From an uncultured Sphingomonadaceae bacterium (GTDB lineage Bacteria; Pseudomonadota; Alphaproteobacteria; Sphingomonadales; Sphingomonadaceae): a DNA stretch of 64,000 nucleotides. A program made the translations under genes and the position numbers. Positions within the stretch are counted from its first letter, which is position 1. The number at the start of each line of letters is the position of its first letter. Positions 13,490-38,966 of the stretch are shown piece by piece. The DNA lies in contig CAMLGC010000008.1 of NCBI GenBank assembly GCA_946479505.1, forward strand, positions 8,347-72,346, given 5' to 3'. The notes under the pieces were generated by a model, which was given only the letters and a program-made list of their open reading frames with translations, was not told the DNA's origin and made no database searches.

Positions 13490-15642
13490 AGCCGATAATC
13501 CAGGGTAAGCCCGATCGTGCGCGGGCGGACGAGGAACTCGACCGGGCCGCGCACGCCCGTGGCCGCCTGCGACACGCCCCGCGTATCCCCGATATTCTCG
13601 ACGAAGGCGGCAATCCCGATCCCGCCGAAATGTGCCGACAGGCGCAGATCGAACAGATTGTAGCCGCCCTGCCTGGCCGGCATCGGGCTGAGTTCACCGG
13701 GCGCGCCCGAAATGTAGCGGTGGCTGAGCAGCAGGGTCGGCGTCGCCGCGCTGTCGTGCACCGTGTAGCTGATCGAATCCGACACCTGCCAGCGCGATGC
13801 GCCCGGGAGGCGTGATCCCTTGGGGACGAGCGTGGCGCCGCTTCCGAAATCGCGGCGCAGCTCTGCGTCGAGATAGGTGACGCCCGCCTGGAGCGTCAGC
13901 GCGCGCGTTGGAAAGAAACGGACATTGCCTTCGAAACCCCGGCTGCGCGCCTTGCCGGCATTGGCGGTGTAGATGAAGCCGCCGGGGCTGGTCTGGGTTA
14001 CCTGTATGTTGCTCCAGTCGACATAGAAGAGCGTGCCGTCGAGCTGGAGGCGGCGGTCGAGAAGGCTGGTCCGCGCGCCGATCTCGTAGTTGACGAGCGA
14101 ATCCGATTGGAACTGGTCGGGAATCGGGAAGGTCGGATCGACCGCGATATTGGGTCCGCCGAAGCGGAAACCTTTGGAAACGAGGACATAGACGAGATGA
14201 TCCTCGTCCGGTTGCCACGTCAGCGACGCCTTGGGTGAAAAGCCCGTCTCGCGCGAGCCGCCTTCGGTGGTCGTCGTTCCGCCGACGAACGGACCCGATT
14301 GGGTGGTGGTGGTATGCAGCCGGGTGCGGAACAGCCGCCCGCCCAGCGTGGCCTTGAACTGATCGGTGAAGTGCCAGGTGGCCTCGCCGAACAGCGCGCT
14401 CTCACGCCCGCGGATGTCCACCGGCGCTTCGAGCAGCCTCGCGGTGCCGAAGACAGGCACCGCATTGGGCGCGTCGAGCGCGTCCACGATGCGTTCGTCG
14501 GTCGCGTCGTGATAGGCGCCGATCAGATATTCGAACTTTGCTCCCGTGGGGGAGGCGAGGCGCACCTCGAAGGTGGTCCCCCGGCTGTGGCCGCCTTCGT
14601 CAAAGCTGACGGGCGCGAGGGCGGGGACCAGCCCCGAATAATCCTGGATGCTCGAGAAATGCTTGGCATGATAGGTGCCGGTCGCGGTCAGCGTGGCGAA
14701 CCCCAGATCCTGGTCGAGCCGAAGATTGTGGATCGTCGTGCGAAAACGGAAGGGCTCGGCGACAAGGCTGTCCTTGGCATAGTCGCCGGCGGTGCGCTGT
14801 GCCGATCCGATATCGTCGGTGCGCTCGGTCTGTTCGAGGAACAGATAGTTGATCGTCGTCCCCGTCGCCGGCTGCCAGGTCGCCAGCAGACGGCCGCCGG
14901 TCATGTCGGTTCGGTTCGAATTGGTCGCCGCTGTGCCGACATTGTCGATATAGCCGCCATCGCGCCGCCGCCCGATCACGCCGCGCACGGCAAAGCTGCC
15001 CGGCGCGATCGGCACGTTCACCATCGCGTGCGCGCCGAAGCCCGTCTCCCCATGCTGCGTGCCCTCGATCGTGCCGCGAAGGTGCATCTCATATTCGTCG
15101 AGATCGGGCCGCGCCGCCTGATAGTTGATCGCGCCGCCCAGCGAGGCCGATCCGAACAACGTGCCCTGCGGCCCGCGCAATATGGTGACGTTGTCGACGT
15201 CGAACGTATCGATGTCGGGAATGCCGGCGGAATAGAAGGGATCGGTCAGCGGCACGTCATTGATGAAATAGCCGGTGGTGCCTTGCGCCTGTGCAATCGT
15301 CGTAGTGGTCGCGATCCCGCGGATGATCGCCGACGAGTTGCCCGGAACCGCCGCATTGAACACCACACCCGGCGTGCGCGACAGGTAATCGGCCAGGCTG
15401 TTCGCGCCCAGCGCTTCGAGCTGGGATTCGTCGAAGGCGCTGACGGAGCCCGAAATGTCGCGCACCGATTCGGGCCGTTTGGTCGCGGTGACGATGATTT
15501 CGGGGATGCGGTTTTCGCTTTCGTCTTCGTTCGCGTTCTGCGCCTGGGGAGGGGGCGCTTCTTGCGCCTGCGCCGGCATGCTGCCCAGTGCCGCCGTGCC
15601 GACCAGCAACGCGATCCGAATTGTGCTCTGATTGTCGATCAT
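13486..15642 (-). CDS. TonB-dependent outer-membrane receptor
   Basis: 718 aa. The start at 15642 is preferred over 15645 and the GTG at 15648 because GGGAGG then lies 6 bases upstream. A signal peptide ending in AQAQ is followed by a plug domain (IPEIIVTATKRPESVRDISGSVSAF, ILRGPQGTLFGSASLGGAINY) and a 22-strand-type barrel ending in the aromatic C-terminus (TLDYRL). This layout is typical of the many TonB receptors of sphingomonads that import complex organic compounds. The coupled hydrolase and the divergent TetR gene suggest one inducible uptake and cleavage unit. Ligand unknown. Confidence 0.88.
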   Translation of the reverse strand: MIDNQSTIRIALLVGTAALGSMPAQAQEAPPPQAQNANEDESENRIPEIIVTATKRPESVRDISGSVSAFDESQLEALGANSLADYLSRTPGVVFNAAVPGNSSAIIRGIATTTTIAQAQGTTGYFINDVPLTDPFYSAGIPDIDTFDVDNVTILRGPQGTLFGSASLGGAINYQAARPDLDEYEMHLRGTIEGTQHGETGFGAHAMVNVPIAPGSFAVRGVIGRRRDGGYIDNVGTAATNSNRTDMTGGRLLATWQPATGTTINYLFLEQTERTDDIGSAQRTAGDYAKDSLVAEPFRFRTTIHNLRLDQDLGFATLTATGTYHAKHFSSIQDYSGLVPALAPVSFDEGGHSRGTTFEVRLASPTGAKFEYLIGAYHDATDERIVDALDAPNAVPVFGTARLLEAPVDIRGRESALFGEATWHFTDQFKATLGGRLFRTRLHTTTTQSGPFVGGTTTTEGGSRETGFSPKASLTWQPDEDHLVYVLVSKGFRFGGPNIAVDPTFPIPDQFQSDSLVNYEIGARTSLLDRRLQLDGTLFYVDWSNIQVTQTSPGGFIYTANAGKARSRGFEGNVRFFPTRALTLQAGVTYLDAELRRDFGSGATLVPKGSRLPGASRWQVSDSISYTVHDSAATPTLLLSHRYISGAPGELSPMPARQGGYNLFDLRLSAHFGGIGIAAFVENIGDTRGVSQAATGVRGPVEFLVRPRTIGLTLDYRL

Positions 15643-15663
15643 CATCACCCTCCCATTAAAGAG

Positions 15664-15677
15664 ACCGACTAGTCGGT
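15664..15677. promoter_or_regulatory. Palindromic TetR-type operator
   Basis: ACCGACTAGTCGGT is a perfect 14-bp palindrome in the 85-base gap between the divergent TonB receptor and TetR genes. Its size and place fit a TetR dimer site controlling the receptor-hydrolase operon and probably the regulator itself. Confidence 0.7.
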
Positions 15678-15727
15678 TTTATTGGAGATTGCAATGAGCG
15701 AGCGGGCGAGGGTAGACGCGATCCACG

Positions 15728-16306
15728 ATGCCGAAGCTCTCCAAACAAGCGTTCGAGGAACGGCGCTCCAACATCATGGATGCCGCGCGCCGCTGCTTCT
15801 CGCGTGACGGCATCCACGTCTCGGTCGACGAGCTCTGCGCCGAAGCTGGCGTCAGCAAGGGCGCGCTCTACGGCTATTTCCCGAGCAAGGAGGCGATCAT
15901 TCAGGCGATCGCCGACGAGCATGTCGCCGATCTGGAAGATATCCGAAAGGCCTCCGAACCCGATGCGCTGTTGGCGGCGCTGCTTGAAAAGATGAGCTAT
16001 CGCGATCCGGTTCAAAGCCGTCTCGAGCTCGAGGCCTGGGCCTACAGCCTCAACAACGCGTCGCTTCATCGCCGCCTTCGCGATAATACAGAGAGGCTCC
16101 GCCTCGTGATCGAAGAGGCTCTTACCGCGATGGTCGCCTCGGGAAAGCTCATCCTCAAGCTGCCGCCGGGTTCCGCGGCGCTCCTCCTCGAAACCTACGC
16201 CGTGGGAATGGTCGCCTGCACGGCGCTCGGTCAGGGTGAAACCGATGCCGAACGGCACAAATGCCTGGAAGTGGCGTTCGACGCCTTGATCAGCGAACGA
16301 ACGTAA
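15728..16306 (+). CDS. TetR family transcriptional regulator
   Basis: 192 aa. The N-terminal DNA-binding domain is clear: RRSNIMDAARRCFSRDGIHVSVDELCAEAGVSKGALYGYFPSKE spans the helix-turn-helix, with the TetR signature SKGALYGYF. The rest is an all-helical ligand domain. It is transcribed away from the TonB receptor, with a palindromic operator between them, so it likely represses that operon until its ligand is present. Confidence 0.9.
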   Translation: MPKLSKQAFEERRSNIMDAARRCFSRDGIHVSVDELCAEAGVSKGALYGYFPSKEAIIQAIADEHVADLEDIRKASEPDALLAALLEKMSYRDPVQSRLELEAWAYSLNNASLHRRLRDNTERLRLVIEEALTAMVASGKLILKLPPGSAALLLETYAVGMVACTALGQGETDAERHKCLEVAFDALISERT

Positions 16307-16597
16307 GTAGGTTCGAATTCCGTGCGGCGGTTCCGTGCGGCTGCGTGAGCCTCGGTCGCCGCCTCAGACGTAACGATGAGATCTGCGGAGCATGAAGTGG
16401 CCGTAATACAGGGGCGCTCGACGCGCCGGCCTCTCAAATTGCCGACAGCAATGCGCCCATTCCGGTCGTCGGCCCGTTCCGTGAATGAGCCCAAAAGCTG
16501 CCATTTGTTCAAGTTGCTTAGCTCGGTTCATCTATTGAAAATGCGGGACGGGTTCTGCGCGCAGTTGGGACACGCAGAACCCTCACAAGCGGGTCGG

Positions 16598-17056
16598 TTA
16601 GGATTTCGATCCTAGCAGCCAGCCGAAGAAGCGGCTTTTCCATCCGGAGGCGACTGATGGTATTTGCGGTGGTTCAACATCTTTCCCCGCTGCGACCACA
16701 TCGGAAGGCGCATCCAATCCATAATGCGCCGCTTTCGCCCGCCGGTCCCGACGCCGTTCCGCCGAAACGTCCGCGTCCGACCAAGGTGGGGCCTCGAACA
16801 CCTGGTTGCGACGGATCACGTAGTGCGAACGACACGGGAGCGTCCAACTCCCGACCGACGGGTGCAGAGTGATTGTCTCGCCGTCATAGGTGATGTTCCA
16901 GTCCGTCGGCGTGAGCGGGGTCACGACCTCCTGGCCGCAACCGCAGCAGCAGCTGTGGGCGGCGCTGCCGAACTCCAGCGATACGTAAAGCACGCCCGGC
17001 TCAAGTGTTTCCGGGAACGTCTCGACGAACCGGTGCTCAAGGACGGAATACCGCAT
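16598..17056 (-). CDS. DUF6527 family protein of the ubiquitin-like operon
   Basis: 152 aa; the start at 17056 is chosen because it overlaps the stop of the E1-like gene by one base (TGATG). LYVSLEFGSAAHSCCCGCGQEVVTPL holds a cysteine cluster (CCCGCG) that looks metal-binding, followed by WNITYDGETITLHPSVGSW and HYVIRRNQV. This pattern is what I associate with DUF6527, a family that travels with multi-ubiquitin and ThiF genes. My recollection is that a protease role has been proposed for such proteins in Bub-type pathways; no catalytic triad can be proven from sequence. Last gene of the operon. Confidence 0.7.
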   Translation of the reverse strand: MRYSVLEHRFVETFPETLEPGVLYVSLEFGSAAHSCCCGCGQEVVTPLTPTDWNITYDGETITLHPSVGSWTLPCRSHYVIRRNQVFEAPPWSDADVSAERRRDRRAKAAHYGLDAPSDVVAAGKDVEPPQIPSVASGWKSRFFGWLLGSKS

Positions 17057-18240
17057 CACGACTGGTCCTCGTTCAGCAGCATGTTCCCGTCGAGCGTGTA
17101 GGTCGAATGATGCTCGTTCTCGAGGTCGCAATAGAAGCCGCATAGCTTCTTCCACTTGATGACCGCGAATATCGCGTTCAGCGCGTTGAGATCGGCGACC
17201 TGGATGTTGGACGCGTAGATATCGCCGGCGCCGCCCCCGGCGAGTGGGATGCGTTTGTGCGACGCGACGCCGTCCCGCGTCTCGGCGGTGCTGGTCGTGA
17301 CGCGGAGAATCCCGCTCAGGCCGCGGTCACCAAGCTCCAGACCCATGCCGATGTCGATGAACCCGACACCGCAGGCGTGCAGCCGGCCGACCAGCGCGAC
17401 CTTGGCCTCGCCGGCGTCGAGGCTCAGGAACGCGAAGTCGATGCCGTCGAGTAGGTCGAGGTTGTCCGGCGTGATCGCGTGCGGCACCGCCGTGATGCCG
17501 CGGTGCATGCGCTCATAGATCGCCTTCAAATGGTTTACCTTCAGGGGGGCCTCGCGGAGCTCGTCGAGGCTCGGCGCGCCGGGCGCCCTGAAGGCGTTGT
17601 GCTGGAGGAACTCGTCGGCGTCGAAAATGCGAATCTCCGCCACCGGCGTTTTCGCGACCATGTCGAGGATGTAGCTGCCGGAGCCGCCGAGGCCGATGAT
17701 CGCGACCCGGTGCCCCGCCAGCTTCGCCGTCAGCGCGCCGATTCCGACGCGGTCCGACGCGGTCTCGACGTAGTTGAACACGCTGTTGGCGTCCTCCTCC
17801 TCGTCGAGCGCGCGGTAAGGCCGCGGTGTCGCCGTGCTGTCGAGCACTGCGGCTGGCCCCGCGATGATCGACGCGTAGGTCGTCATCTTGTGGTGGTAGT
17901 CGCGGTAGCCGCCGTCGGGCTTGCTCGAGAAGGCGTGCTCGGCGGTCAGGCCGTGCCCCAGGTCGAAGTGCGTCGTCTGGTTGGCGATCGCGACGATGCG
18001 CCTCCCGTCGGCGAAACACGGGTATTCGCCGTCAAAGTGCATGACGTGCGTGTCGGGCGGCCTGGTCTGGTCGCCGGCCAGCGCCAGGCTCGAGATCAGG
18101 GTTCCCTTGCGCACCTTGCGGTTGGCGTCGACGTAGGGAACCTCGCGCATGACGAGGAACCCACCGACGATCTGGACGAAATAGCCTTCCTCGCGCAGCT
18201 TCGCGAGGTCGGCGTTACGACTGAACAGTGCGCGTGACAT
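17056..18240 (-). CDS. ThiF/E1-like adenylyltransferase with N-terminal extension
   Basis: 394 aa. The C-terminal two-thirds is an E1/ThiF/MoeB fold: nucleotide loop GLGGSG (183-188), acidic IRIFDADEF (D208), and the NxxR pair HNAFR (N215, R218) that contacts ATP. It should adenylate the C-terminus of the modifier encoded just upstream in the operon. Only four cysteines (75, 290, 367, 371) are present and no zinc CxxC pairs occur, so a classic thioester site is doubtful. Residues 1-160 (with HFDGEYPCFADGRR) match the DUF6791-type N-terminus and may be an E2-like domain. The ATG overlaps the modifier gene by 26 bases. Confidence 0.82.
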   Translation of the reverse strand: MSRALFSRNADLAKLREEGYFVQIVGGFLVMREVPYVDANRKVRKGTLISSLALAGDQTRPPDTHVMHFDGEYPCFADGRRIVAIANQTTHFDLGHGLTAEHAFSSKPDGGYRDYHHKMTTYASIIAGPAAVLDSTATPRPYRALDEEEDANSVFNYVETASDRVGIGALTAKLAGHRVAIIGLGGSGSYILDMVAKTPVAEIRIFDADEFLQHNAFRAPGAPSLDELREAPLKVNHLKAIYERMHRGITAVPHAITPDNLDLLDGIDFAFLSLDAGEAKVALVGRLHACGVGFIDIGMGLELGDRGLSGILRVTTSTAETRDGVASHKRIPLAGGGAGDIYASNIQVADLNALNAIFAVIKWKKLCGFYCDLENEHHSTYTLDGNMLLNEDQS

Positions 18241-18967
18241 TGAAGACCGTCCCCTGCTTGATGGTGACCGAGCCGTGGGCGCCCAGCTCCCCGGCGTGCG
18301 GCGTCGAGGCCGCCTTGCGGTAGGTCATCGAGAAGACGACGTTGGGCTCGTGCGGGCCGGGGAAGGCCAGCTCGACGATCTGCTCGAAGGTCACCTCCGG
18401 TCCCGTCACGGTGCGCGCGCGGGTGTTGACGATGATCTCGATCTCCGCCGCGGGGCGCTTCGCGTTGTAGAAGCGTTCGACGCCCGGCGCGTTGAGGTCG
18501 ACCAGCATCGCCGGCTCGATCAGGACGTCGGTCCCGCCGCGCACCTCAAGGAAGACCGCCTCGTCCGGGCCCGGCTTGGCGAGATGCTCGAGGATCCGGC
18601 CGCTGATCGCGGGCTTGCCCCAGCGCTCCTCGTGCGCGTTGACCTCGAACTTGAAGTCGCGGTCCGTGAGGAAGGCGACGAATCGTTCCGCGCCCGCCCC
18701 GCGGAGGTCGAACGTCTCGTCGAGGCGGACGTCCTCAAAGTCGCCGGTGTCGAGAACCGCGAAGAGGCTGTAGCCGCGGTCGGGCTCGAGTCCCGCCGCC
18801 TCGAGGATCTGGCGGCCGAGCGGGATCGGATCGGCGACGCCGAGCGGGCGGAAGTCGACGCCGTCGAGAGCGAACTGGATGCGGTAGGTCTTGGCTGGCT
18901 GCAGAGGGCGACCCTCGCGGATCGCTTCGCCGACATCGTCGTATTCGGGGAGTTCGGGGGTGTTCAT
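18215..18967 (-). CDS. Multi-ubiquitin-like protein (three Ubl repeats)
   Basis: 250 aa from ATG 18967, with AAGGA upstream; an earlier in-frame start at 19018 lacks support. After a 25-residue leader come three ubiquitin-like units at about 26-102, 104-168 and 175-250, each starting with a beta-hairpin (TYRIQFALDGVDF; DFKFEVNAHEERW; AEIEIIVNTRARTV). The last ends GTVFNVTRTVQS, typical of the multi-ubiquitin family; there is no C-terminal Gly-Gly, and the last residue is serine. It would be activated by the E1-like neighbour and joined to targets or to itself. Confidence 0.85.
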   Translation of the reverse strand: MNTPELPEYDDVGEAIREGRPLQPAKTYRIQFALDGVDFRPLGVADPIPLGRQILEAAGLEPDRGYSLFAVLDTGDFEDVRLDETFDLRGAGAERFVAFLTDRDFKFEVNAHEERWGKPAISGRILEHLAKPGPDEAVFLEVRGGTDVLIEPAMLVDLNAPGVERFYNAKRPAAEIEIIVNTRARTVTGPEVTFEQIVELAFPGPHEPNVVFSMTYRKAASTPHAGELGAHGSVTIKQGTVFNVTRTVQS

Positions 18968-19049
18968 CTTGCTTTTTCCTTCGTGTTCAGCCGGGTCAAC
19001 CCGGTCACGAAGGGACAATCGGAACGGCCGCCGCCGACCGGAAAGGCGG

Positions 19050-22000
19050 TCAGAAATCTTTCTGCAGCGATCCGGCGGGGACAGGCCCGCAAATGAAGAA
19101 GGCGGGGCATCCCGGGCAGACGCGCTGCGACGGGGTCGCGGGGAACGCGCCGGCGCGGATCCCCGCGATCACGGTGTTCAGCAGCTCGTGCCGGTTGCCG
19201 AGCACGCGTGCCGTCATGCCGAGTGCCGTGACCTGGTCGCTCATCAGGTGCACCACCTCCGCGGCGGCGGCGGGTGCGTTTTCCGCGAGGGCGAGCAGCG
19301 CGGTCGCGACGCCGAGGTTCTCGGTGTCCGACTTGCGGTATACGCCCGTGCGAATGCGGCGGTAGATTCGGACGCCCTGGGCGTCGACGAGGACATCGTC
19401 GGCGCTGAACACGATCTGATCGGCGCCGATGCTGAGCGGCACCGTGGCCGGGGTCTCCGCGCGGTGGGCTAGGCGCGATTGCCGGAACCGCATCACCAGC
19501 GTGACCGCCATCGCCCGCAGCTCCGCGAAGCTCCCGGGCGTGTCCAGGCCATGATCGTCGCAGGCCCGCTCGACGGCGGCGCGGAGCTGCGCGTCGTCCG
19601 ACAGGTCGAGCCCGTCCCGCACGGCCGCGCGGACGACGGACCGGGCTGCCTCGTGCATCCTCATGTAGTCGGTCTCGGTCCGGCGTCCCCCTATGCCGAG
19701 CACGTGGGTGTAGAAGAAGCGCCGCTTGCACTTGTTCTTATCCAGCATCGCCACCTGCGAGTCCCGCAACCGGATCGTCCCGTCGATGACTAGCGCGATC
19801 GGTTCATCTTCCGGGGCGGGCGGCAGCGCGCGGATCAGGTCGGGCGTGTTCCGGGCCACGCCCGTCCCAAGGCGGCTTAGGAATTCGGACAGTGGTCTTG
19901 CGGTGTGGTTGGCCTTCTCCGTCGCGGCATACATGACGAGCCGGTCGCGTGCGCGGGACAGGGCGACGTAGAAGAGGCATTCACGCTCTTCCGCGTCCCC
20001 GTCGCGCAGCGCCGTCTTCACGTCGCCGGTCAGTCCGGCGATGACGCCCTCCGGCGGCAGGCACGCAGGGGCCTTCGACGGACTCGGGAGCGTGTCCTGG
20101 TTGAGGCCTGGGAGGTGGACGCACCGGAACTCGAGGCCCTTCGCGCCGTGGATCGTCATGAGTCGGACGGCGTCTAGTCCCTGCGCGGCGGCGGGCAGCT
20201 GCCGCAGATCGCGGTCGTCGCCGATCGCCACGAGCCTCCGGATCCGGTCCAGCAGGCGCGGCACGGCCCTTCCCTGCTCGCGCGGCTGCACGCGCAAGAA
20301 GTTCAACAGCTGCCACAGTGCGATGCCCTGGCTGCGTTCGGCGACCGACCGCGCCTCGGCTATACGGGCGGCGATGCGGGTCCGGTCGAATAGGACGGCC
20401 GCGAGCGTGCGCCAAGGCGGCGCGTCGGCATCGAAGCCCTCGAGCGCCTCTGCCAGCCTGTCCAGCGCGGCATGGCCATCCGCGGAGATCGGCAGATCCC
20501 TTCGCGCGTCGAGCCAGTCGAGCGGTTCCCGCTCGTCGTCGCGCAGCGTGGCTAGCACGGCGCCGACGTCGTCGAGCGACATGGCGAAATCCGTCATGCT
20601 GGCAGCGCGAACCAGGCCCATCGCCCTTCGATCCGCGAGCAGCGACAGTAGCGAGAGGAGGTCCTTGACCTCGGCGCGCTCGAACAGACTGCCGAGGAAG
20701 AGGACCGGGATTCCCATGCGCTCGAGATCCCGAGCGATCACGCCGAGCCGCTCGTTGCCGGTGCACAACACGGCCTGGTCGCGGTAGGCGAACCCCGCCG
20801 AGTGCATCTCGGCGATGCAGTCGGCGATCGCGATCGACTGCTCGTCCTTCACCGCGCGGGTCCTGAGCTCGATCGGGATCGCGCACGGACCGCGGTCGGC
20901 CTTCAGCCGCGTCTCCGTCGTGCTCGCCGTCATGCCGACCGCGAACGCGGAGTAGGCGGTGACTATCTCGTCGAACGAGCGGTAGTTGATCTCCAGCCTG
21001 CCCGACCTGGCGCCGGGGAAGTCCTCCGTCGTGAACTTTGAGGTGCTTACCGGGGACGCTCCGCGGAACCTGTAGATAGACTGCCGCGCGTCGCCGACGA
21101 CCCAGAGGTTTTCGCCGGCGGGGCGCATCGCCTTGAGCAGCCGCACGCTGGCGCGGTTGACGTCCTGATATTCGTCGACGAGCAGGTGATCATACATCCC
21201 GCCGAGCTTCGCGGCGATGTCGGGGCGCCGCTCGAGGAGTTCGACGGGCAGCGAGACGAGGTCGCCGAAGTCGACCGCCCGCCGTTCGCGCTTGATCCTC
21301 TCGTAGAGGGCGTAGACCCGCGCCACCTCGGCGGACTTGAGCGCCTCGGACGTCCGCGCCTCGTCGCCGATCGCGGCGACGCGCATCGCCTCGGCGTACC
21401 GCGCGTAGTCCTCGGCGGCGACCACCTCGTCCTTCGCCCGCGATATCGCCGCGAGGATGTCGCCGATCAGCCGGGTCGGATCGTAGAGGTCCTGGTAGTA
21501 TTCGAGCTCGAGCTTCGGGAACTCGCGTTCGAGCAACTCGACCGCCTCGACCCGGTCCATCAGCCGTGGATCGTCGGGCAGCGAGAACTCGGCGCTGAGG
21601 CGCCGGATGAGGTCGAGCCCGAACGCGTGAAACGTGCCGATCCACACCGCCGCGGCCTTCTCGGGTCGCTCCGCAGCGATGCGGTCCGCCATTTCGCCGG
21701 CTGCCTTGTTCGAGTAGGTGAGCACGAGGAGCCTCTTGGGATCGACGTCCTCGTCGAGCAGCTGGACGACCCGCGCGGTCAAAGTCTGGGTCTTGCCGGT
21801 GCCGGGTCCGGCCTCGAGCAGGTAGGGGCCGCCGCGATGGGCGGCTGCGTCCGCTTGGGCTTTATTTAGTGGATGTACCTTGCGAACCTTGTCGTCGAGT
21901 TCGATTGCGGGGAGTAGAAGCCCGTCGAGGAGCTGCTGCGCGACGACGTCAAATGGCGCGCGCATACGCTCGGCGATGGCGGACGCGGTCAGGCCGCCCT

Positions 22001-22454
22001 CGAGGTGGAGGCGGCAAACCACCTCGCGCGGGAGGAGGAGCTCGCGCCCGAAGAGGTCCATCTGGACCTCGCGCCGTTGCCGGCGGCCGTAGTCCACCAC
22101 GCGGTCGATGCCCGTTGGTGAAGGCTCCGCGGCCCGGGCGGGATCGGCCTCGGTGACCGTGGGAGAGGAGGTTCCGTCCCCGAGCTCGTGATGTCCGATC
22201 TCGTGGGCGACGAGGAACGCCTGCTCGAAGGGGGACCCGACGTTCTCATGGATGATGAGGTCATCCTCCGGAACCAGCGTCGCGCGTCCGTTGTCGAGGA
22301 CGGTGGCGCCCGGGTTCGCGGTGTCGACGTCGAGGCCGCGATCGTTCGCGATTGCGACGGCGAAAGCGTAGGGATCCGTCGGATCGAGTCCACGCGCTAC
22401 CGCGTTGGCGTGCAGTTCCGCGGCACGGCGACGTCCAAGCTCGATGGCGTCCAC
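19050..22454 (-). CDS. ImmA/IrrE protease-UvrD helicase-Fe-S nuclease-like fusion
   Basis: 1134 aa from a GTG at 22454. Residues 60-180 form an ImmA/IrrE metalloprotease: HEIGH at 84-88 and a downstream REVQMDLFGRELLLP ligand segment (E129). Residues 195-880 form a UvrD/Rep SF1 helicase: NKAQ, Walker A AGPGTGKT (215-222), Walker B DEYQD (427-431), and later motifs TIHGAKGLEF and YVALSRARDRL. The end has four cysteines spaced as in AddB/Cas4 Fe-S nucleases (C909, C1113, C1116, C1122), but the expected D-x-K catalytic strand reads RRIRTG, so the nuclease looks inactive. It may sense damage or foreign DNA and cleave a regulator. Confidence 0.85.
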   Translation of the reverse strand: MDAIELGRRRAAELHANAVARGLDPTDPYAFAVAIANDRGLDVDTANPGATVLDNGRATLVPEDDLIIHENVGSPFEQAFLVAHEIGHHELGDGTSSPTVTEADPARAAEPSPTGIDRVVDYGRRQRREVQMDLFGRELLLPREVVCRLHLEGGLTASAIAERMRAPFDVVAQQLLDGLLLPAIELDDKVRKVHPLNKAQADAAAHRGGPYLLEAGPGTGKTQTLTARVVQLLDEDVDPKRLLVLTYSNKAAGEMADRIAAERPEKAAAVWIGTFHAFGLDLIRRLSAEFSLPDDPRLMDRVEAVELLEREFPKLELEYYQDLYDPTRLIGDILAAISRAKDEVVAAEDYARYAEAMRVAAIGDEARTSEALKSAEVARVYALYERIKRERRAVDFGDLVSLPVELLERRPDIAAKLGGMYDHLLVDEYQDVNRASVRLLKAMRPAGENLWVVGDARQSIYRFRGASPVSTSKFTTEDFPGARSGRLEINYRSFDEIVTAYSAFAVGMTASTTETRLKADRGPCAIPIELRTRAVKDEQSIAIADCIAEMHSAGFAYRDQAVLCTGNERLGVIARDLERMGIPVLFLGSLFERAEVKDLLSLLSLLADRRAMGLVRAASMTDFAMSLDDVGAVLATLRDDEREPLDWLDARRDLPISADGHAALDRLAEALEGFDADAPPWRTLAAVLFDRTRIAARIAEARSVAERSQGIALWQLLNFLRVQPREQGRAVPRLLDRIRRLVAIGDDRDLRQLPAAAQGLDAVRLMTIHGAKGLEFRCVHLPGLNQDTLPSPSKAPACLPPEGVIAGLTGDVKTALRDGDAEERECLFYVALSRARDRLVMYAATEKANHTARPLSEFLSRLGTGVARNTPDLIRALPPAPEDEPIALVIDGTIRLRDSQVAMLDKNKCKRRFFYTHVLGIGGRRTETDYMRMHEAARSVVRAAVRDGLDLSDDAQLRAAVERACDDHGLDTPGSFAELRAMAVTLVMRFRQSRLAHRAETPATVPLSIGADQIVFSADDVLVDAQGVRIYRRIRTGVYRKSDTENLGVATALLALAENAPAAAAEVVHLMSDQVTALGMTARVLGNRHELLNTVIAGIRAGAFPATPSQRVCPGCPAFFICGPVPAGSLQKDF

Positions 22455-22457
22455 GCG

Positions 22458-23045
22458 TCAGTCGTCGGCCAGCAGCCGAACGCGGTCGGCCTCGGGCACG
22501 CCGGCGTCCTTCAGCACCTGCTCGAACGTGGCCTGCGCGTCCGACCCGGGTGGACCGTCCGACTTGTAGCTTCTCGTCATCGCCATCGGCACCGGAGGGC
22601 GTGCCATGGCAGCGATCACGTGCGCCGGAGGAACGCCCAGCACCCCGGACAGCTCCCGCGTCACGGAACCCGGGACGCTCGACGCGAGCACCCTGTGCTC
22701 GCGGAAGCAGGTGACCACCTGCCGCGGCACGCCAAGCTTCACGGCGAGCGCCTTGCCCAGTTCTCCGGAGAGACGGGCCAGGGGATCGGCGCCGGTTGCG
22801 GGGTCCGATCGGGCAGCCTGGTGGGTGATCCACGCCGCGTCGATGCGGGACTGCTCGGTGGCGGTCAAGCTGCGCTCGTCTTCGGCATCGGGCGTGGCGA
22901 TCAGCCGGGAGAAGTCGATCAGCTGCGGCGCGAACTGAGGGTGCGCCCCGACGTAGCGGGCGAGGACGTCGCCGTCGTGGACGTCCTCCATCTGGAACAG
23001 GTCGAGCACGGCCTCTAGCGTGAGCGGCGGGTTGGTGGCGGTCAT
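22458..23045 (-). CDS. Unknown protein between sigma factor and helicase
   Basis: 195 aa; the ATG at 23045 overlaps the sigma-factor stop (ATGA). No family is recognised. The C-terminal half is helical and has two short blocks that look like helix-turn-helix units (KALAVKLGVPRQVVTCFREH and RELSGVLGVPPAHVIAAM). The leader is acidic. Its place between a sigma factor and an ImmA/IrrE protease makes it a candidate anti-sigma or adaptor protein that the protease could cleave; this is inference from order alone. Confidence 0.65.
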   Translation of the reverse strand: MTATNPPLTLEAVLDLFQMEDVHDGDVLARYVGAHPQFAPQLIDFSRLIATPDAEDERSLTATEQSRIDAAWITHQAARSDPATGADPLARLSGELGKALAVKLGVPRQVVTCFREHRVLASSVPGSVTRELSGVLGVPPAHVIAAMARPPVPMAMTRSYKSDGPPGSDAQATFEQVLKDAGVPEADRVRLLADD

Positions 23046-23818
23046 TCGTCGTCCCCAGGATTGAACAGGGCGCCGAGCCTCTTTAGCGCTCGGTCCCGAT
23101 AGTTGCGAACCGACCGATCCGAGCAGCCCAGGGCCTTCGCGATCGTCATGACCGACGGGTCGCTCGAATGGATCTGCCATCCGATCAACAGGAGGTGCAT
23201 GGTCCTGCTTTGTTCCGGCGGCAACGTGTCAATCGCGACGTAGAGCCGCTCCCGGAAAAGCGGATCGGAAAAAATTTCCGCGTCGAGCGGATTAGTCGCG
23301 ACGGCGACTGCAGCGGCGTCGGCGACGTCGCCCTCCTCATCGTCCATCGAGTCGCCGCGGTTGACCTCGCGCCACACTCGCTCTTGAGCGTCGAGCCGGA
23401 GCCGCTTGATGGCGAGGTCGAACCGCGCCTCAAAGAAGTCGAGCCTGTCGTCCACCTCGGCGCGGTCCTTCGCAAGCAGCTCGACGAAGCGGTCGAAGAC
23501 GGCGTCGCGGATGCGTTCGTCAGTGGCGGACGCAGTGCCGCCCGACGCCGTGCTCGGGACCGCCCGCATGACGCGCTCGGCGAGCACCTTGTAGAGGCGC
23601 TCGAACCAGGCTGAGGAGTTCTCGACGCGGGTGGCGCGGATGAGGTGCACCAGGCATTCGCTTGGCACATAGGCGGGATCCTTGCGGCCGCGGATGCGGG
23701 CCCGCTTGAGTAGCGCCTCCCGTGGGAGGTCGCTGAGGACGGTGAGCAGCGCCTCGACATTGTCGGGACGCGTATACGGCGTCCCGTCCTTCTTCTTCCG
23801 GGTGAGCGGGGCGATCAA
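23042..23818 (-). CDS. Sigma-70-like RNA polymerase factor
   Basis: 258 aa from a TTG at 23818, chosen because GGGAGG lies 5 bases upstream; an ATG at 23926 would give 294 aa. The middle (ERIRDAVFDRFVELL to RVWREVNRG) resembles sigma region 2. Region 4 is clear at the C-terminus: AIDTLPPEQSRTMHLLLIGW, then MTIAKALGCSDRSVRNYRDRALKRL, with the DNA-reading helix. It heads the ubiquitin-like operon and most likely drives it, and perhaps other genes. The exact sigma class is uncertain. Confidence 0.72.
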   Translation of the reverse strand: MIAPLTRKKKDGTPYTRPDNVEALLTVLSDLPREALLKRARIRGRKDPAYVPSECLVHLIRATRVENSSAWFERLYKVLAERVMRAVPSTASGGTASATDERIRDAVFDRFVELLAKDRAEVDDRLDFFEARFDLAIKRLRLDAQERVWREVNRGDSMDDEEGDVADAAAVAVATNPLDAEIFSDPLFRERLYVAIDTLPPEQSRTMHLLLIGWQIHSSDPSVMTIAKALGCSDRSVRNYRDRALKRLGALFNPGDDE

Positions 23819-23942
23819 CTTGTCCTCCCTATACGAAGCGCCAGCATAGGTGCGTTTCAGGAGTAATCGCCACGAAAATTGAAACCGGAACGGCAGGATG
23901 GAATATTTAGAGAGCCTTTTCCGCAAAGAAGCGCCTAGGAGC

Positions 23943-24080: not shown

Positions 24081-24109
24081 CCCTAGGTTCGAGCCTAGGG
24101 CGTCCACCA
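24081..24109 (+). other. Decayed tRNA 3'-end-like sequence, possible old att site
   Basis: CCCTAGG-TTCGAG-CCTAGGG-CGTCCACCA looks like the T-arm, acceptor strand and CCA of a tRNA, but the T-loop has six bases where seven are needed. No matching 5' half (GGACGCC) was found nearby. It lies in the gene-free stretch 23927-24470 between two cargo modules, as expected of an attachment site left by an integrated element. The rest of that stretch shows no gene. Confidence 0.35.
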
Positions 24110-24470: not shown

Positions 24471-24659
24471 ATGCCCGCCACCGCTCAAATTCAAGATGAT
24501 AAATCAGCCCGGCTGTCTATCAGCCTGACGGCGGAGCAGCACCGCGAGTTGAACGAGATTGCCAAAAAGAACAGAGTTTCAGTTGCGTGGGTGGTCCGCG
24601 AGGCGATTGACCGCCTCTTGAAGGACGACATGCCGCTTCTGCATGTGGGGAAAGAATGA
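24471..24659 (+). CDS. Ribbon-helix-helix (CopG-like) regulator
   Basis: 62 aa. SARLSISLTAEQHRELNEIA gives the beta-strand and first helix, and RVSVAWVVREAIDRLL the second helix of the RHH fold. The stop overlaps the methylase start (ATGA), so it is the first gene of the restriction-modification operon. It probably acts as a controller that keeps expression of modification and restriction in balance, as small C proteins do in other systems. Confidence 0.82.
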   Translation: MPATAQIQDDKSARLSISLTAEQHRELNEIAKKNRVSVAWVVREAIDRLLKDDMPLLHVGKE

Positions 24660-26410
24660 CCGCCGTTCGCGTAAAATCCAAGCCGGCACCGGCCCGTGAA
24701 GGCACGCCACAAGAAGTCAGGGGCCGCTATGCCGATCTTGACCAGGACAAACTACGCGGCGGTTATTACACGTCGTCGCGCGTTGCCGAATGGCTTTGCG
24801 CCTGGGCGATTCAGGATGCCGGCGACACGGTGCTGGAGCCGAGCTGCGGCGATGGTGCTTTCATCGAGGCGGCCATGCACAGGTTTCAGGCGCTCGGTGC
24901 GAACGCCGACCAGATCGCCAACAACCTCAAGGGCGTCGAGATCGTCGCGGCAGAGGCGAAGCGCGCCCGCGCGCGCCTCAAGCAGCTTCTCGGCAAGGCG
25001 GCCGATGCGGTCATCCAAAACTCCGATTTCTTCGGCTGGTGGCAGGGCGTTGATCAGCCCGCCTATGATGTCATCATAGGGAATCCTCCTTTTATCCGTT
25101 ACCAGTCATTCCCCGAGCCGCATCGCACCCGCGCCATGGCTATTATGGGGGATCAGGGACTCACCCCGAACAAGCTGACCAATATTTGGGTGCCCTTCGT
25201 GGTCGCCGCCACGGCGAGCCTCAAGGTGGGCGGTCGCCTCGCCCTCGTGCTTCCTGCGGAAATTCTGCAGGTCACTTATGCCGCGCAGCTTCGGTCTTTC
25301 CTGACCGATCGTTTTAAGCGCATCGACATCGTGGCGTGCAATGAGCTGTTTTTTGAAAAAGCCGAGCAGGAGGTTGTGCTGCTGATGGCCGATGGCGCGC
25401 TTAAGCGAGCCTCGGAGCATAACAAATGCCGCGTTGCGATGACGGAAGCCGATTTGGTTTCCGATATCACCGATCGCAGGCCGACCGTGCTGCTCAAGAC
25501 GGCCAAGCCGAAGATCATCCAGCACGACAATGAGAAGTGGCTGAAATACTTCCTCGACAACAAGCAGATCGAGTTCATGCGGGCGCTGCGCGATGCGGAG
25601 ATCACCGCCGCCATGTCCGCTCATGCCTCGATCGACGTGGGCGTCGTCACCGGCAAGAACGAGTTTTTCGTTCTATCTGGAGATCAGGTCGCCGATTTGG
25701 GTATCGAAGGATACACCACGCCGCTGGTTTCGCGATCCGTGCAGCTCAAGGGCACGCGCCTTGGTAAAGGCGACTGGAGATCGCTGGCTGCTGCCGGCGA
25801 CCGAGTGCATCTTCTCAATATCAGCCCGGCCCAGCTCCAGAAGCTTAGCCCGAAACTCAAGCGGTATATCGAGGAGGGCGAAAGCAAGCTCTTCCACAAG
25901 GGATATAAGTGCTCGATCCGCAAGCCCTGGTACACGGTCCCATCCGTCTGGACCCCTGACGGCTTTGCGTTCCGTCAGATTTACGACTTTCCGCGCATGG
26001 TCCTGAATACGTCGGAGGCCACGTCCACCGACACAATCCACCGTATGCGCAGCAAGGGTGCCAAGGCCGAACGCATCATCGCCAACACCTACACTTGGCT
26101 GACGGCCGCATCTGCAGAGATTGAAGGGCGCAGCTATGGCGGCGGGGTTTTGGAACTGGAGCCGACCGAGGCAGAGCGCCTGCTTATGCCCGCCAAGCTC
26201 AATGGTGCCATGTCCCTCGCCGATGCAGACAAGCTGATCCGTGCCGGCCGTCTCGATGACGTGCTGGAGGAAAATGCCCGTATCGTTCTGAGGGAGCACA
26301 TGGGGCTTTCGTCCGCCGAATGCGCCCTGCTCAAGGGTGTTTGGACGAAAATGCGTAATCGTCGCAATTCACGGCGGCGAGGACCGAAGGTCGCGGGCCC
26401 CGCGAAATGA
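24656..26410 (+). CDS. Eco57I-type N6-adenine DNA methyltransferase
   Basis: 584 aa. SAM-binding motif I is VLEPSCGDGAF (about residues 59-69) and the catalytic motif IV is NPPF (143-146), the order of gamma-class N6-adenine methylases. The C-terminal half (LGKGDWRSL, KCSIRKPWYTVPSVW) resembles the target-recognition part of Eco57I-like enzymes. It lacks a nuclease motif, so it is the modification-only partner of the fused enzyme that follows with a 4-base overlap. Composition is less GC-rich than the ICE genes, which suggests separate acquisition. Confidence 0.88.
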   Translation: MTAVRVKSKPAPAREGTPQEVRGRYADLDQDKLRGGYYTSSRVAEWLCAWAIQDAGDTVLEPSCGDGAFIEAAMHRFQALGANADQIANNLKGVEIVAAEAKRARARLKQLLGKAADAVIQNSDFFGWWQGVDQPAYDVIIGNPPFIRYQSFPEPHRTRAMAIMGDQGLTPNKLTNIWVPFVVAATASLKVGGRLALVLPAEILQVTYAAQLRSFLTDRFKRIDIVACNELFFEKAEQEVVLLMADGALKRASEHNKCRVAMTEADLVSDITDRRPTVLLKTAKPKIIQHDNEKWLKYFLDNKQIEFMRALRDAEITAAMSAHASIDVGVVTGKNEFFVLSGDQVADLGIEGYTTPLVSRSVQLKGTRLGKGDWRSLAAAGDRVHLLNISPAQLQKLSPKLKRYIEEGESKLFHKGYKCSIRKPWYTVPSVWTPDGFAFRQIYDFPRMVLNTSEATSTDTIHRMRSKGAKAERIIANTYTWLTAASAEIEGRSYGGGVLELEPTEAERLLMPAKLNGAMSLADADKLIRAGRLDDVLEENARIVLREHMGLSSAECALLKGVWTKMRNRRNSRRRGPKVAGPAK

Positions 26411-29400
26411 CGGAGGCCGCGCAGAAGGCGGCCGCCCGTGCCCGCATTGCCGAGCTGGTCGCCAAATTCAAACGCAATGAAGCTGATTATCTCAGTGCCG
26501 CCTACAACGAGACACAGGCGCGAACCGACTATATCACCCCGCTCCTCGTGGCCTTGGGCTGGGACGTTTATAACGCGAAGGGCCAGTCCCTTGGGCTGCG
26601 CGAGGTGGTGGAGGAGGCCACCGTCGAGGTCGGCGAGGAGAAACTGTCCAAGCGGCCGGACTATGAATTGCGCCTTGCGCGTCAGCGTAAGCTGTTCGTC
26701 GAGGCGAAGAAGCCCAGCGTTCGGATTGATCGCAGCAGGGATGCGGCCTTCCAGACGAGGCGCTACGGATATTCGGCCAGCCTGCCGATTTCGGTTCTGA
26801 CGAACTTCCATCAACTCGCCATTTACGATTGCGTGCCGCTTCCTGGCGCAACCGACGAGGCCCACGTCGCGCGCATGACGCTGATCGGATACGAAGAGTT
26901 CGACGCGCGATTTGATGAGTTATGGGCGTTGCTATCGCGCAGTGTCGTATATTCCGGCGACTTCGACCGCCGCTTTGCGGTCGATGTCACGCGGCACGGC
27001 GCAGAGCAGTTTGATGATTTCTTCCTGCGCCAGGTGCGGTCGTGGCGCGAACGCCTGGCGGTCGACATACACCATCACAGCCCGAACCTGACACCGCCCG
27101 AGCTGACCTATGCGGTGCAGCTCTTCCTTTCGCGCATCGTGTTCCTGCGTATCTGCGAAGATCGCGATATTGAGCGTTATGAGACGTTGCGGGGATTGGT
27201 CGCCGCCAACGCCTTCGACGCGCTTATGGTCGAACTCCGGCGCGCTGATGCCTTTTACGATTCGGGCCTTTTCCGCCTGCTGGACGATGAACGGCTGGGA
27301 ATCCGTATCAGCGATGACGTGCTGAGCGGGATCATCGAGGAGCTTTACTACCCGCAGAGTCCCTACACCTTCGCCGTCGTTGAAACGGAAGTGCTGGGCG
27401 AAATCTACGAACAGTTCCTTGGGGAGGTGATAACCTTCACCGATCAGGGTTTGGTCGAGATCACGGCAAAGCCCGAGGTGCGGGAGAGCGGTGGCGTGGT
27501 TCCCACCCCGCGCTACATTGTCGATGCCATCGTGCAGCGGACCATGGGGCCGGCGATCGCCGGCAAGTCGCCCGCGGCGCTGGCGGATTTCACCGTTGCC
27601 GATATCTGCTGCGGTTCGGGCATCTTCCTTCTGTCAATGTTTGAGTTTCTGACCGACCATTATCTCGCATGGTATCAGGCCAACGATCGCGCCAAACATG
27701 TCGGCCGCACGATCTATGAAGTCGCAGAGGGTCAATGGCGTCTCACGTTCGACGAAAAGCGCCGTATTCTTCTCGCCCATGTGCGCGGCGTCGATATTGA
27801 TCCCAACGCCGTCGAAGTTGCCCGCTTCAGCCTGATGCTGAAGCTCATCGAGGACGAAACCGGCGTCGGCCTGCGTGAATTCGTCGATCGGACGGGCACG
27901 CCCGCTCTCCCCGCGCTTGATGACACCTTGCGCGCGGGTAATAGTTTGGTCAGCCAGGTCGAATGGACGGCGGCGCGAGGCGCGCTACCGCATCGCTTGT
28001 TCGAGAAGGTTAATCCATTCAGTTGGCCGAACGAATTTCCGGCCGAACACGCGCGGCAGGGATTTGACGTCATCGTCGGAAATCCGCCCTATATTCGCAT
28101 TCAGAACATGCAGGCCTACTCGCCCGAGGAGGCCGCGTTCTACAACAGCCGGCAATCGCCCTACACGACAGCGCGGCAGGACAATTTCGACAAATACGCG
28201 CTCTTTATCGAGCGATCCCTGAGCCTCACCAAGCCTGCAGGCCGTCTTGGTTTCATCGTACCGCACAAGTTCATGGTGGTTCAGTCGGGGCGCGCCCTGC
28301 GTCAGCTCGTGACCGCCCCGCAAACGGTCGAAGAGATTGTCCATTTCGGCGTCCAGCAGGTATTTGGCCGCCAAGCCCTGAACTATACCTGCATCCTGAT
28401 CCTCGATCGCACCGGCACCGCCGACATAGGCGTGGAGCGTGTCGCTGAACTGGAGGCCTGGCGCTACGGTTTCGCCGGCAATCAAAGCCGTCTGAATTCG
28501 GCTGATCTGACAGATGCGCCATGGGAATTCGCCGATGAAGAAACACGCGCTCTATTCGCGCGCGTCCGCGCAGCCTGCGGCCGCGAGCTGGGAGAGGCTG
28601 CGGAAATATTCGTTGGCGTCCAGACCAGCAACGACGCGGCATTTATCTTTCGGGAGGTTGCCTCGAACGCCGCCACCTTGACCCTGCGGTGGCAAGGGCG
28701 GGACTGGCCGATCGAGCGCGGCATTGTTCTTCCTTGCATTCATGACGGACGGCTGTTCCCCTACACGCGCGCCGAGGCCAATGCGTGGATGATCTTTCCT
28801 TATGAGGTCGTGCCCGGCGGCAAGGGGCAGATCGCGCGGCTGATCCAGCCCGCCGATATGGCTGCCCACTATCCCTTGGCGCTTGCCTACCTGACGGCGC
28901 GACGCGAGGAGCTTGAACGGCGCAATATCGTCGGCGGCGCGGCTGCCGATCGTCAGTTCTACCAGTTCGGCCGCTCGCAGAGTCTCACCAAGTTCAATTC
29001 GCCCAAGATTATCCTGCCGATTTTGTCGCGAGAAGCGCGGTATGCCTATGACGAAGATAATGTCATTATGACCGGCGGCGGCAACGGGCCTTATTATCTC
29101 ATCCGCCCGCGTGACGGCGCAGATGAAACAAATCATTTTCTGCTCGCCATCCTCCATCATCCTCTATGCGAGGCCATGGTGCGGACGAATACGAGCGCCT
29201 TTCAAGGCGGATATTATTCGCACGGCAAGCAGTTCATCAAGCATCTGCCGATCCCGGCGGCCACGCCCGCCCAGCGCGCCGATATCGAGCAACTGGTGGG
29301 CGAAATGATCGCTGCGACTGATGGGTTCAAGGCCGCCCGCACACCCCATAACTACAAGCTGCAGGAACGGCGGATCGCGGAGTTGCGCGTGGACATAGAG

Positions 29401-29475
29401 GCGCGAGTGAGTGCGCTCTACGGCCTTTCGGCTGCCGACCTCATGGTGGTTGCGGCCGTCCCGGTGCCGGCATGA
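26407..29475 (+). CDS. Type IIG-like restriction-methylation enzyme
   Basis: 1022 aa. A PD-(D/E)xK nuclease is near the N-terminus: RPDYELRL with D85, then VEAKKP with E99 and K101. A helical linker leads to the methylase: motif I DICCGSGIF (about 399-407) and catalytic NPPY (559-562). The last 300 residues, with AFQGGYYSHGKQFIKHLPIP, look like a TaqI/Eco57I-type specificity domain. One chain therefore cuts and methylates. With the separate methylase it fits the Eco57I arrangement (RM plus M). Recognition site unknown. Both catalytic centres look intact. Confidence 0.88.
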   Translation: MTEAAQKAAARARIAELVAKFKRNEADYLSAAYNETQARTDYITPLLVALGWDVYNAKGQSLGLREVVEEATVEVGEEKLSKRPDYELRLARQRKLFVEAKKPSVRIDRSRDAAFQTRRYGYSASLPISVLTNFHQLAIYDCVPLPGATDEAHVARMTLIGYEEFDARFDELWALLSRSVVYSGDFDRRFAVDVTRHGAEQFDDFFLRQVRSWRERLAVDIHHHSPNLTPPELTYAVQLFLSRIVFLRICEDRDIERYETLRGLVAANAFDALMVELRRADAFYDSGLFRLLDDERLGIRISDDVLSGIIEELYYPQSPYTFAVVETEVLGEIYEQFLGEVITFTDQGLVEITAKPEVRESGGVVPTPRYIVDAIVQRTMGPAIAGKSPAALADFTVADICCGSGIFLLSMFEFLTDHYLAWYQANDRAKHVGRTIYEVAEGQWRLTFDEKRRILLAHVRGVDIDPNAVEVARFSLMLKLIEDETGVGLREFVDRTGTPALPALDDTLRAGNSLVSQVEWTAARGALPHRLFEKVNPFSWPNEFPAEHARQGFDVIVGNPPYIRIQNMQAYSPEEAAFYNSRQSPYTTARQDNFDKYALFIERSLSLTKPAGRLGFIVPHKFMVVQSGRALRQLVTAPQTVEEIVHFGVQQVFGRQALNYTCILILDRTGTADIGVERVAELEAWRYGFAGNQSRLNSADLTDAPWEFADEETRALFARVRAACGRELGEAAEIFVGVQTSNDAAFIFREVASNAATLTLRWQGRDWPIERGIVLPCIHDGRLFPYTRAEANAWMIFPYEVVPGGKGQIARLIQPADMAAHYPLALAYLTARREELERRNIVGGAAADRQFYQFGRSQSLTKFNSPKIILPILSREARYAYDEDNVIMTGGGNGPYYLIRPRDGADETNHFLLAILHHPLCEAMVRTNTSAFQGGYYSHGKQFIKHLPIPAATPAQRADIEQLVGEMIAATDGFKAARTPHNYKLQERRIAELRVDIEARVSALYGLSAADLMVVAAVPVPA

Positions 29476-29508
29476 TCGGAAAAATATAACAAAGGGAGCC
29501 GGGGGACG

Positions 29509-29640
29509 ATGCTTCGCAAAATCATTTCAGTTCACAACGTCGGGCGGTTCCGCAGCTCGGCAACAACCCCTGATCCCCAGCCTGCCAAGCACACAATGAT
29601 TACGGGTGCGAACGCCATAAGCCTGCTTGAGAATCCGTCA
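29509..29640 (+). pseudogene. Truncated AAA-type ATPase gene (N-terminal stump)
   Basis: With GGGAG upstream, the frame starts MLRKIISVHNVGRFRSSA and continues to KHTMITGANA. This looks like the first 35-40 residues of a RecF/RloC-like ABC-type ATPase, where a Walker A loop (GxxGxGKT) should follow TGANA. Here it breaks off into unrelated, basic, low-quality sequence with no Walker motif. The open frame runs on to 30159 but the later part does not look like protein. A third gene of the defence locus was probably lost by deletion. Confidence 0.5.
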
Positions 29641-33665: not shown

Positions 33666-33668
33666 CCC

Positions 33669-38098: not shown

Positions 38099-38103
38099 CA
38101 AAA

Positions 38104-38850: not shown

Positions 38851-38966
38851 GCGCGGCCGGAAAGGGCGGAGGGCATTCAGCCCCCGTGTCCTCCGCCCGC
38901 CGCGAGGTCCGGCGCCGCTCCCCCGCCGGGCCTCGCGGTCTCCACCCCCAACAGGATTGTCGAGCA

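Follow-up and report, generated by a model that had tools for sequence, protein, structure and literature searches.

How ubiquitin-like (Ubl) conjugation systems, a recognised immune mechanism of bacteria in the case of Bil and potentially harmful to the cells that carry them, are kept off is an open question. It is raised by a six-gene operon in a 64,000-nucleotide stretch of DNA (hereafter the window) from an uncultured Sphingomonadaceae bacterium (contig CAMLGC010000008.1, positions 8,347 to 72,346), where a divergent sigma-70-type factor (SIG), a small protein (X) and a peptidase-helicase (HEL) precede genes for a multi-ubiquitin protein (UBL), an E1-like enzyme (E1) and a DUF6527 protein. 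A conserved two-box motif with promoter-like geometry, TTNCCGG-N16-CGATT, stands before the modifier genes. On balance, we lean slightly toward the view that SIG-X-HEL is a portable, sigma-factor-based immune switch, in which the peptidase that releases a dedicated sigma factor would be attached to a DNA-sensing helicase, and that defence modules acquiring the motif (Bub-like, Bil and, once, CBASS genes) would come under its command. The controllers described in PMC13373217 act through repressors; if the view is correct, control here would gain a positive layer, exerted by a dedicated sigma factor through a recognisable promoter. The features concerned are as follows.

23865..23891, minus strand: P1, promoter-like motif preceding SIG, with a 15-nt spacer and one mismatch
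23042..23818, minus strand: SIG, divergent sigma-70-type factor, 258 aa
23231..23258, minus strand: P2, promoter-like motif within SIG and upstream of X-HEL (exact)
22458..23045, minus strand: X, 195 aa, proposed anti-sigma factor and protease substrate
19050..22454, minus strand: HEL, 1134 aa, M78 (ImmA/IrrE) peptidase, UvrD helicase and PDDEXK-like domain
19017..19044, minus strand: P3, exact promoter-like motif in the gap from the HEL stop to the UBL start
18215..18967, minus strand: UBL, multi-ubiquitin protein of three repeats, 250 aa when read from the conserved ATG
17056..18240, minus strand: E1, 394 aa, DUF6791 (10-160) and ThiF/E1 (171-285)
16598..17155, minus strand: DUF6527 protein, 185 aa, Cys/His cluster

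All six genes (16598-23818) are transcribed in the order SIG, X, HEL, UBL, E1, DUF6527. A single minus-strand operon with overlapping genes had been proposed in the original prediction, and it stands: every gene is in place and the overlaps are conserved across loci. When gene starts are assigned by aligning each locus with the genes of the window, the SIG/X overlap measures 4 nt in 36 of 38 loci (frames are broken in the other two, L035 and L043) and the UBL/E1 overlap 26 nt in 44/44. Pfam searches of each protein also recovered the multi-ubiquitin, ThiF/E1, DUF6527, and ImmA/IrrE-type peptidase plus UvrD assignments made earlier, to which the analysis adds a PDDEXK-like domain after the helicase, a DUF6791 domain in the E1, and three promoter-like repeats (P1, P2 and P3). 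SIG starts at a TTG after GGAGG, in an open frame that extends up to 23926; UBL starts at a conserved ATG, 19018 being an upstream TTG; and a later start at about 17056-17059 could give a shorter DUF6527 product.

The two boxes of the motif are conserved in alignments of the otherwise diverged gap between HEL and UBL. P3 follows directly after the HEL stop, and P2 lies inside SIG, 217 nt from its end in most loci. For a first set of 36 loci, the window included, P3 is exact in 36/36 and P2 in 35/36; three loci with broken frames (L035, L043 and L044), left out of this set, have both copies too. A second set of 11 loci shows P2 exact in 5 and within one mismatch in 10, and P3 exact in 4 and within one mismatch in 9; L101 has neither copy, and L100 has P3 with a 15-nt spacer. 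Among seven plasmid loci forming a third set (L109 and L113-L118), P3 is exact in six and has one mismatch in one, and P2 is within one mismatch in five and absent from L116 and L117. Distant hosts also carry the motif: L036 and L038 have exact copies, and in Leptolyngbya (L046) P2 and P3 each have a single mismatch.

Exact matches lie almost entirely at these positions and on one strand. The 47 loci of the first two sets (857,686 bases) contain 82 on the plus strand, 80 of them at P2 or P3, with none on the minus strand, and the third set likewise gave no exact minus-strand match in 119,741 bases. Control windows gave 0/5534 exact matches and 3/5534 within one mismatch. Fifteen multi-Ubl loci without SIG (234,654 bases) contained no exact match on either strand; within one mismatch they gave four plus-strand and two minus-strand matches, no plus-strand one being at the Ubl gene. 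A slightly stricter pattern, applied to 12 SIG-bearing genomes (a 13th, G264, whose locus L101 has no motif, was left out), returned 30 matches, of which 23 fall within the operon region and seven elsewhere, and none for a reversed control pattern; the seven are about what chance would give by our estimate of about eight. An exact match in L001 at 14789 sits among overlapping frames and is not counted as a target.

P2 lies in coding sequence, and its codon usage can be compared with the rest of the operon. Its Ile codon is ATT in 33/33 distinct SIG sequences, as compared with a mean of 16% of Ile codons in these operons, its Arg codon is CGG in 32/33 (mean, 27%), and the preceding codon ends in T in 33/33. 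Upon random synonymous recoding of 16 hand-picked loci, the observed P2 match was reached at frequencies of 0.0001-0.005 in 15; for L046, with one mismatch allowed, the frequency was 0.06. P2 is kept as DNA, beyond the constraint on the protein. Furthermore, P2 and P3 have the same third base in 14 of 15 loci chosen for comparison, and a CCGA variant is common to the motif copies of both Acinetobacter loci and of L118 (CCGATC in L118), as expected if one protein reads both copies.

P1 is more restricted. It occurs before SIG in the window and L001-L006 (zero to two mismatches, spacer 15), in L048 with one mismatch and, exactly, in L116; it was not found in most other loci, and an alignment of 15 other upstream regions gave no clear common box. 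Matches with one or two mismatches elsewhere in L003, L006, L025, L036, L090 and L101, and one with a single mismatch before SIG in L117, were not counted as P1. Separately, in an Acinetobacter johnsonii plasmid an IS5-like element (L047:7042-8001) separates HEL from UBL, and a one-mismatch P3-like motif stays beside UBL.

SIG, X and HEL travel together. Scanning with UBL identified 44 genome loci, of which 38 have all three genes upstream of UBL (38 of the 40 with enough upstream sequence). Four of the other six (L007, L023, L039 and L041) end at a contig edge, and two Mesorhizobium loci have lost SIG, X and the HEL N-terminus and kept P3 (L020:3680-8968, L040:5926-8968); in L020, the C-terminal part of HEL continues one long frame that comes from unrelated upstream sequence. 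The proposed link of a modifier cassette to a sigma factor and a protease-helicase is thus a conserved unit, and within this subfamily homologous loci do not consistently lack the sigma factor and helicase genes. The same gene order is found on Leptolyngbya, Klebsiella and Acinetobacter plasmids, in an acidobacterium (Silvibacterium, L036) and in a Planctomycetota metagenome-assembled genome (L038).

Genome surveys place X beside multi-Ubl genes as well. Multi-Ubl genes occur in 14 of 349 Pseudomonadota genomes, with SIG-X-HEL in six, a helix-turn-helix (HTH) gene with M78 in three and HATPase with a winged HTH in one; L094, L095, L096 and L098 received no assignment, with only one or two upstream open reading frames (ORFs) scanned in each and L095 ending at a contig edge. 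X was found in seven of the 349, six with strong matches, all beside a multi-Ubl gene, and one (G149) with a weak match (3.8e-5) within a 698-aa frame, outside the 14 multi-Ubl genomes. A second sample of 385 genomes of the class, which has G007 in common with the first, contained multi-Ubl in 12 and X in three, each time about 3.6 kb upstream of the multi-Ubl gene. In addition, X occurs in 66 plasmid records, of which 40 are mobilizable, 16 conjugative and 45 from Acinetobacter. In a collection of 50,697 phage records, multi-Ubl had no match at E<=1e-5.

The original prediction treated the operon as one linked circuit. The linkage is conserved, but the genes do not form one inseparable six-gene pathway: there are two modules instead, because 8 of the 14 multi-Ubl loci in the first survey lack SIG-X-HEL and because SIG-X-HEL also precedes Bil genes. 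That SIG-X-HEL and the Ubl cassette are separate modules within one operon is well supported by sequence comparison. SIG-X-HEL also precedes other cores, namely JAB-E1 in L092, an E2-fused Ubl in L100 and E2/UBC plus ThiF in L056. On a Bradyrhizobium japonicum plasmid (L109:6204-14540), SIG-X-HEL with exact P2 and P3 is followed by Bil-type genes matching BilA (1.6e-47), BilB (4.5e-44), BilC (1.3e-60) and BilD (4e-146) in PADLOC. Relatives of the four Bil genes also stand behind an exact P3 in L116:7689-15476 and L117:7725-13440, the latter with SIG-X and no HEL match; these Bil-associated plasmids (L109, L116 and L117) are from Bradyrhizobium and Cupriavidus. On a Rhizobium beringeri plasmid (L118:4540-15043), two different Ubl modules flank SIG; the divergent module is preceded, on its own, opposite strand, by a motif copy with one mismatch that begins 76 nt before its start. 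Finally, the Planctomycetota locus carries, downstream of its Bub-like operon, a further exact copy (L038:11392-11419, plus strand) before a CBASS pair (SAVED-HNH effector and CD-NTase), which is a single case. A 220-aa gene after this CBASS pair may, on our reading, have an E2-like look. On a Polymorphum plasmid (L110/L112), SIG-X is cut off by IS21 genes, with no Ubl in the two stretches read.

Conversely, distant multi-Ubl loci, in which the core is similar, have other genes in the upstream slot. Annotation gives HTH plus ImmA/IrrE peptidase in L051, L052 and L058, and Pfam gives HTH plus M78 in L093, L099 and, weakly, L097, and HATPase plus winged HTH in L089. L054 has an ImmA/IrrE gene beside two unnamed genes, L057 has WYL, and a gene pair in L053 has a CapK/CapS layout with HTH matches only; no clear regulator was found upstream of the multi-Ubl core in L049 and L050. 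The slot genes resemble the CapH+CapP, CapW and CapK+CapS controllers, which PMC13373217 describes as assigned to the Bub, Bil and other immune operons that they adjoin.

Turning to the proteins, the sigma-70-like assignment of SIG is partly borne out. A weak region 4 match (Sigma70_r4_2, 1.1e-4) falls under the Pfam cut-off in the window, and 23 of 28 aligned SIG proteins match this family at E<=0.01; Pfam recognises region 2 in none of the 28. NCBIfam PRK09047 matches SIG at 5e-05 (residues 135-288 of the longer frame). Several homologues are annotated as 'sigma24 family', others as 'DNA-binding response regulator' and an Acinetobacter homologue as 'sigma-70'. X matches no Pfam family, and around residues 85-149 its predicted fold resembles an XRE-type HTH; we infer that it would be the anti-sigma factor of SIG. 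Pairs of ECF sigma and anti-sigma factors are typically encoded by a sigma gene that overlaps a small downstream gene, and act on a two-box promoter. The SIG/X overlap and the conserved two-box motif at the target genes are similar to these features. However, X lies outside the recognised anti-sigma families, and Pfam does not recognise region 2 in SIG.

HEL matches UvrD (3.7e-60), Peptidase_M78 (PF06114, 3.8e-10) and PDDEXK_1 (6.2e-09) in Pfam, and also GajB and other defence helicase models. The HExxH motif is found in 37 of 41 HEL loci, the remaining four being pieces without the N-terminus, and Walker A, DEYQDVN and Cys 909, 1113, 1116 and 1122 are invariant in the 30 sequences compared. 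RecB-type nucleases usually have the motif DYKTG. HEL has RR-I/V-x-TG at this site, with Arg (29/30) or His (1/30) at the Asp position and Arg (26), Gly (2), Ser (1) or Asp (1) at the Lys position, so the nuclease appears to be inactive. A second ORF, weakly HEL-like (52-106 bits), lies downstream of the operon, around 14100-17650, in several rhizobial loci; the loci with such an ORF are L008, L010, L012, L015, L016, L020, L022 and L040.

The explanation that we consider best, and rather likely, is that SIG drives the tagging genes, that X holds SIG off, and that the M78 domain of HEL, alerted by DNA, inactivates X. SIG would direct RNA polymerase to TTNCCGG-N16-CGATT before X-HEL (P2), the Ubl genes (P3) and, in some loci, SIG itself (P1), and X would keep SIG from acting. 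Once HEL encounters abnormal DNA (single-stranded, broken or invading) through its helicase part, its peptidase domain would cleave or release X, and the freed SIG would fire both P3, for the tagging genes, and P2, for more X and HEL, the latter also resetting the switch. The role of X, the M78 cleavage, the DNA signal and conjugation by the cassette are the parts that we infer. That the protease might free the sigma factor, as originally suggested, is consistent with the predicted XRE-like fold of X and with the precedent of CapP, a protease activated by single-stranded DNA that cleaves CapH (PMC13373217). HEL is similar to CapP in having an M78-type peptidase (HExxH), but that of HEL is fused to a helicase; the substrate of CapP is a separate XRE-type repressor, and for X an XRE-like fold is predicted. 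The Cap controllers of that paper represent repressor-only control, whereas the window has a sigma factor with its own promoter-like motif.

SIG is the natural reader of the motif, which occurs together with SIG across several phyla, is directed toward the following gene and keeps a constant spacer, as promoters do; the sigma-promoter link is well supported by sequence, and the motif before the modifier genes fits well with the earlier description of the operon as having its own sigma factor. HEL need not be the reader, since L117 has SIG, X and P3 with no HEL match; because the motif is kept there with both SIG and X, this locus does not separate these two. The motif might instead be an operator of X or of another DNA-binding protein: in the form closest to CapH, an XRE-like X would repress P2 and P3 directly and M78 cleavage would relieve the repression. 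ImmA and ImmR are an example of an M78-type peptidase acting on an XRE-type repressor. X carries a predicted XRE-like HTH, the ACCGGT of the first box is palindromic, and CapP cleaving CapH (PMC13373217) is a further case of the same pairing. However, the motif as a whole is non-palindromic, with fixed 16-nt spacing and a direction toward the next gene, which is sigma promoter geometry, and its strand is respected not only by the lack of exact minus-strand matches in the 47 loci but also by the divergent Ubl genes of L118 with their own-strand copy. We regard the operator as the least likely of the alternatives. A strict association of the motif with SIG is contradicted by the persistence of P3 in L020 and L040, where SIG and X are gone from the locus, which we read as a recent loss.

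Two further alternatives concern the purpose of the operon, and both seem improbable to us, to about the same degree. HEL could be an effector rather than a sensor, its helicase and nuclease attacking foreign DNA, with parallel tagging of host or phage proteins by the Ubl cassette and another substrate for M78. UvrD and PDDEXK domains are indeed frequent in defence effectors, and the matches to GajB and other defence helicase models point the same way; however, the nuclease motif is degenerate and the nuclease looks inactive, HEL shares its motif, through P2, with the Ubl genes, and regulators occupy the same slot in several multi-Ubl loci without HEL. Alternatively, the operon could serve a DNA-damage or general stress response of the host rather than immunity. 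Against this, the same controller precedes Bil genes and a motif copy precedes a CBASS pair; the operon is carried on mobile plasmids and lies beside Tn7-like transposition genes; and in the window it adjoins restriction-modification and conjugation genes.

If SIG does command these genes, the motif would permit regulated defence genes to be found from sequence, and the motif and module have already led to Bil and CBASS genes. According to PMC13373217, 219 of 544 Bub operons have CapW or CapH+CapP and 59 have CapK+CapS, with many left without a named controller; SIG-X-HEL could explain part of these.

The modifier genes, UBL, DUF6791-E1 and DUF6527, are a known kind of cassette, represented by the polyUbl operons of Iyer et al. 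(2006) and by Bub-like operons. UBL matches Multi_ubiq (2.7e-55) in three stretches and the PDB chains 9cd2, 8u38, 9d5b and 9d59; its C-terminus in this subfamily is [VI]FNVTRTxxS, with the terminal Gly absent. E1 matches DUF6791 (4e-57) and ThiF (1.3e-08), and D207, R218, K234 and D275 are invariant in 28 sequences. Cys75 is the sole invariant Cys in these 28 and is kept in 34/34 and 40/40 in further comparisons, as is His65 in 40/40. These two residues prompted a comparison of DUF6791 with six E2-like sequences by hhalign, and an E2-like domain was rejected (probability 0.3%); structure searches with the predicted E1 model (mean pLDDT 59.5) returned the ThiF part. The DUF6527 protein matches PF20137 (3.1e-24) and, with Cys71, Cys108 and His111 in 35/35 and Cys69, Cys70 and Cys73 in 34/35, appears to be a small protein with a Cys/His metal-binding-like signature. 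No JAB domain (E<=1) and no E2 family was matched by Pfam in the six operon proteins.

The polyUbl operons, in row 6e of Table 1 of Iyer et al. (2006; PMC1779556), are typified by Mesorhizobium loti mlr6139, with three repeats, and share with the window a multi-repeat Ubl and a small Cys/His metal-binding-like protein; on our reading, 'domain X' would correspond to DUF6791 and protein Y to DUF6527. Their E1 is fused to JAB or, in some members, to the non-JAB 'domain X', and the window E1, ThiF with an N-terminal DUF6791 and no JAB, fits this pattern. Bub likewise combines a multi-Ubl gene with genes for E1 and DUF6527. The Citrobacter BubA, BubB and BubCD chains are matched by the Enterobacter cassette L053, whose Ubl matches 9d59 at 1.2e-135; the window UBL matches this chain at 5.6e-18 and is thereby related to BubA. 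Citrobacter Bub has JAB fused to E1 (BubCD) and an E2-like BubB, whereas the window E1 has DUF6791 in place of JAB and the window has no recognised E2-like protein, its controller being SIG-X-HEL. In L109, L116 and L117, Bil (BilABCD) follows the same SIG-X module and P3, but its Ubl, E2, JAB and E1 families differ from those of the window.

A word search of PMC1779556 found none of 'sigma', 'UvrD' and 'helicase', and in PMC13373217 'UvrD' is the E. coli repair gene and 'sigma factor' an anti-sigma comparison. No paper joining a sigma factor and a UvrD-M78 protein to a Ubl cassette was found in the literature searched, which excluded the main Bub papers, where such neighbours may be mentioned. 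As far as these searches go, neither the promoter motif nor a control shared by Bub-like, Bil and CBASS genes has been described.

Regarding the genomic context, the window operon adjoins Eco57I-type restriction-modification genes (24656-29475), a HEPN/Polbeta protein and type IV secretion genes, and because of these neighbours it is probably part of a conjugative element. The divergent neighbours at 24471-40268 comprise a CopG-like ribbon-helix-helix (RHH) gene (24471-24659), an Eco57I-type methylase and restriction-methylase pair, the HEPN/Polbeta protein and then type IV secretion. Tn7-like transposition genes adjoin the operon on a Klebsiella plasmid (L045:11513-16789) and an Acinetobacter plasmid (L047:14909-16753). 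Finally, an inverted repeat, CCCTAGG-CTCGAA-CCTAGGG, lies at 24081-24100 of the window, upstream of SIG and between SIG and the RHH gene.

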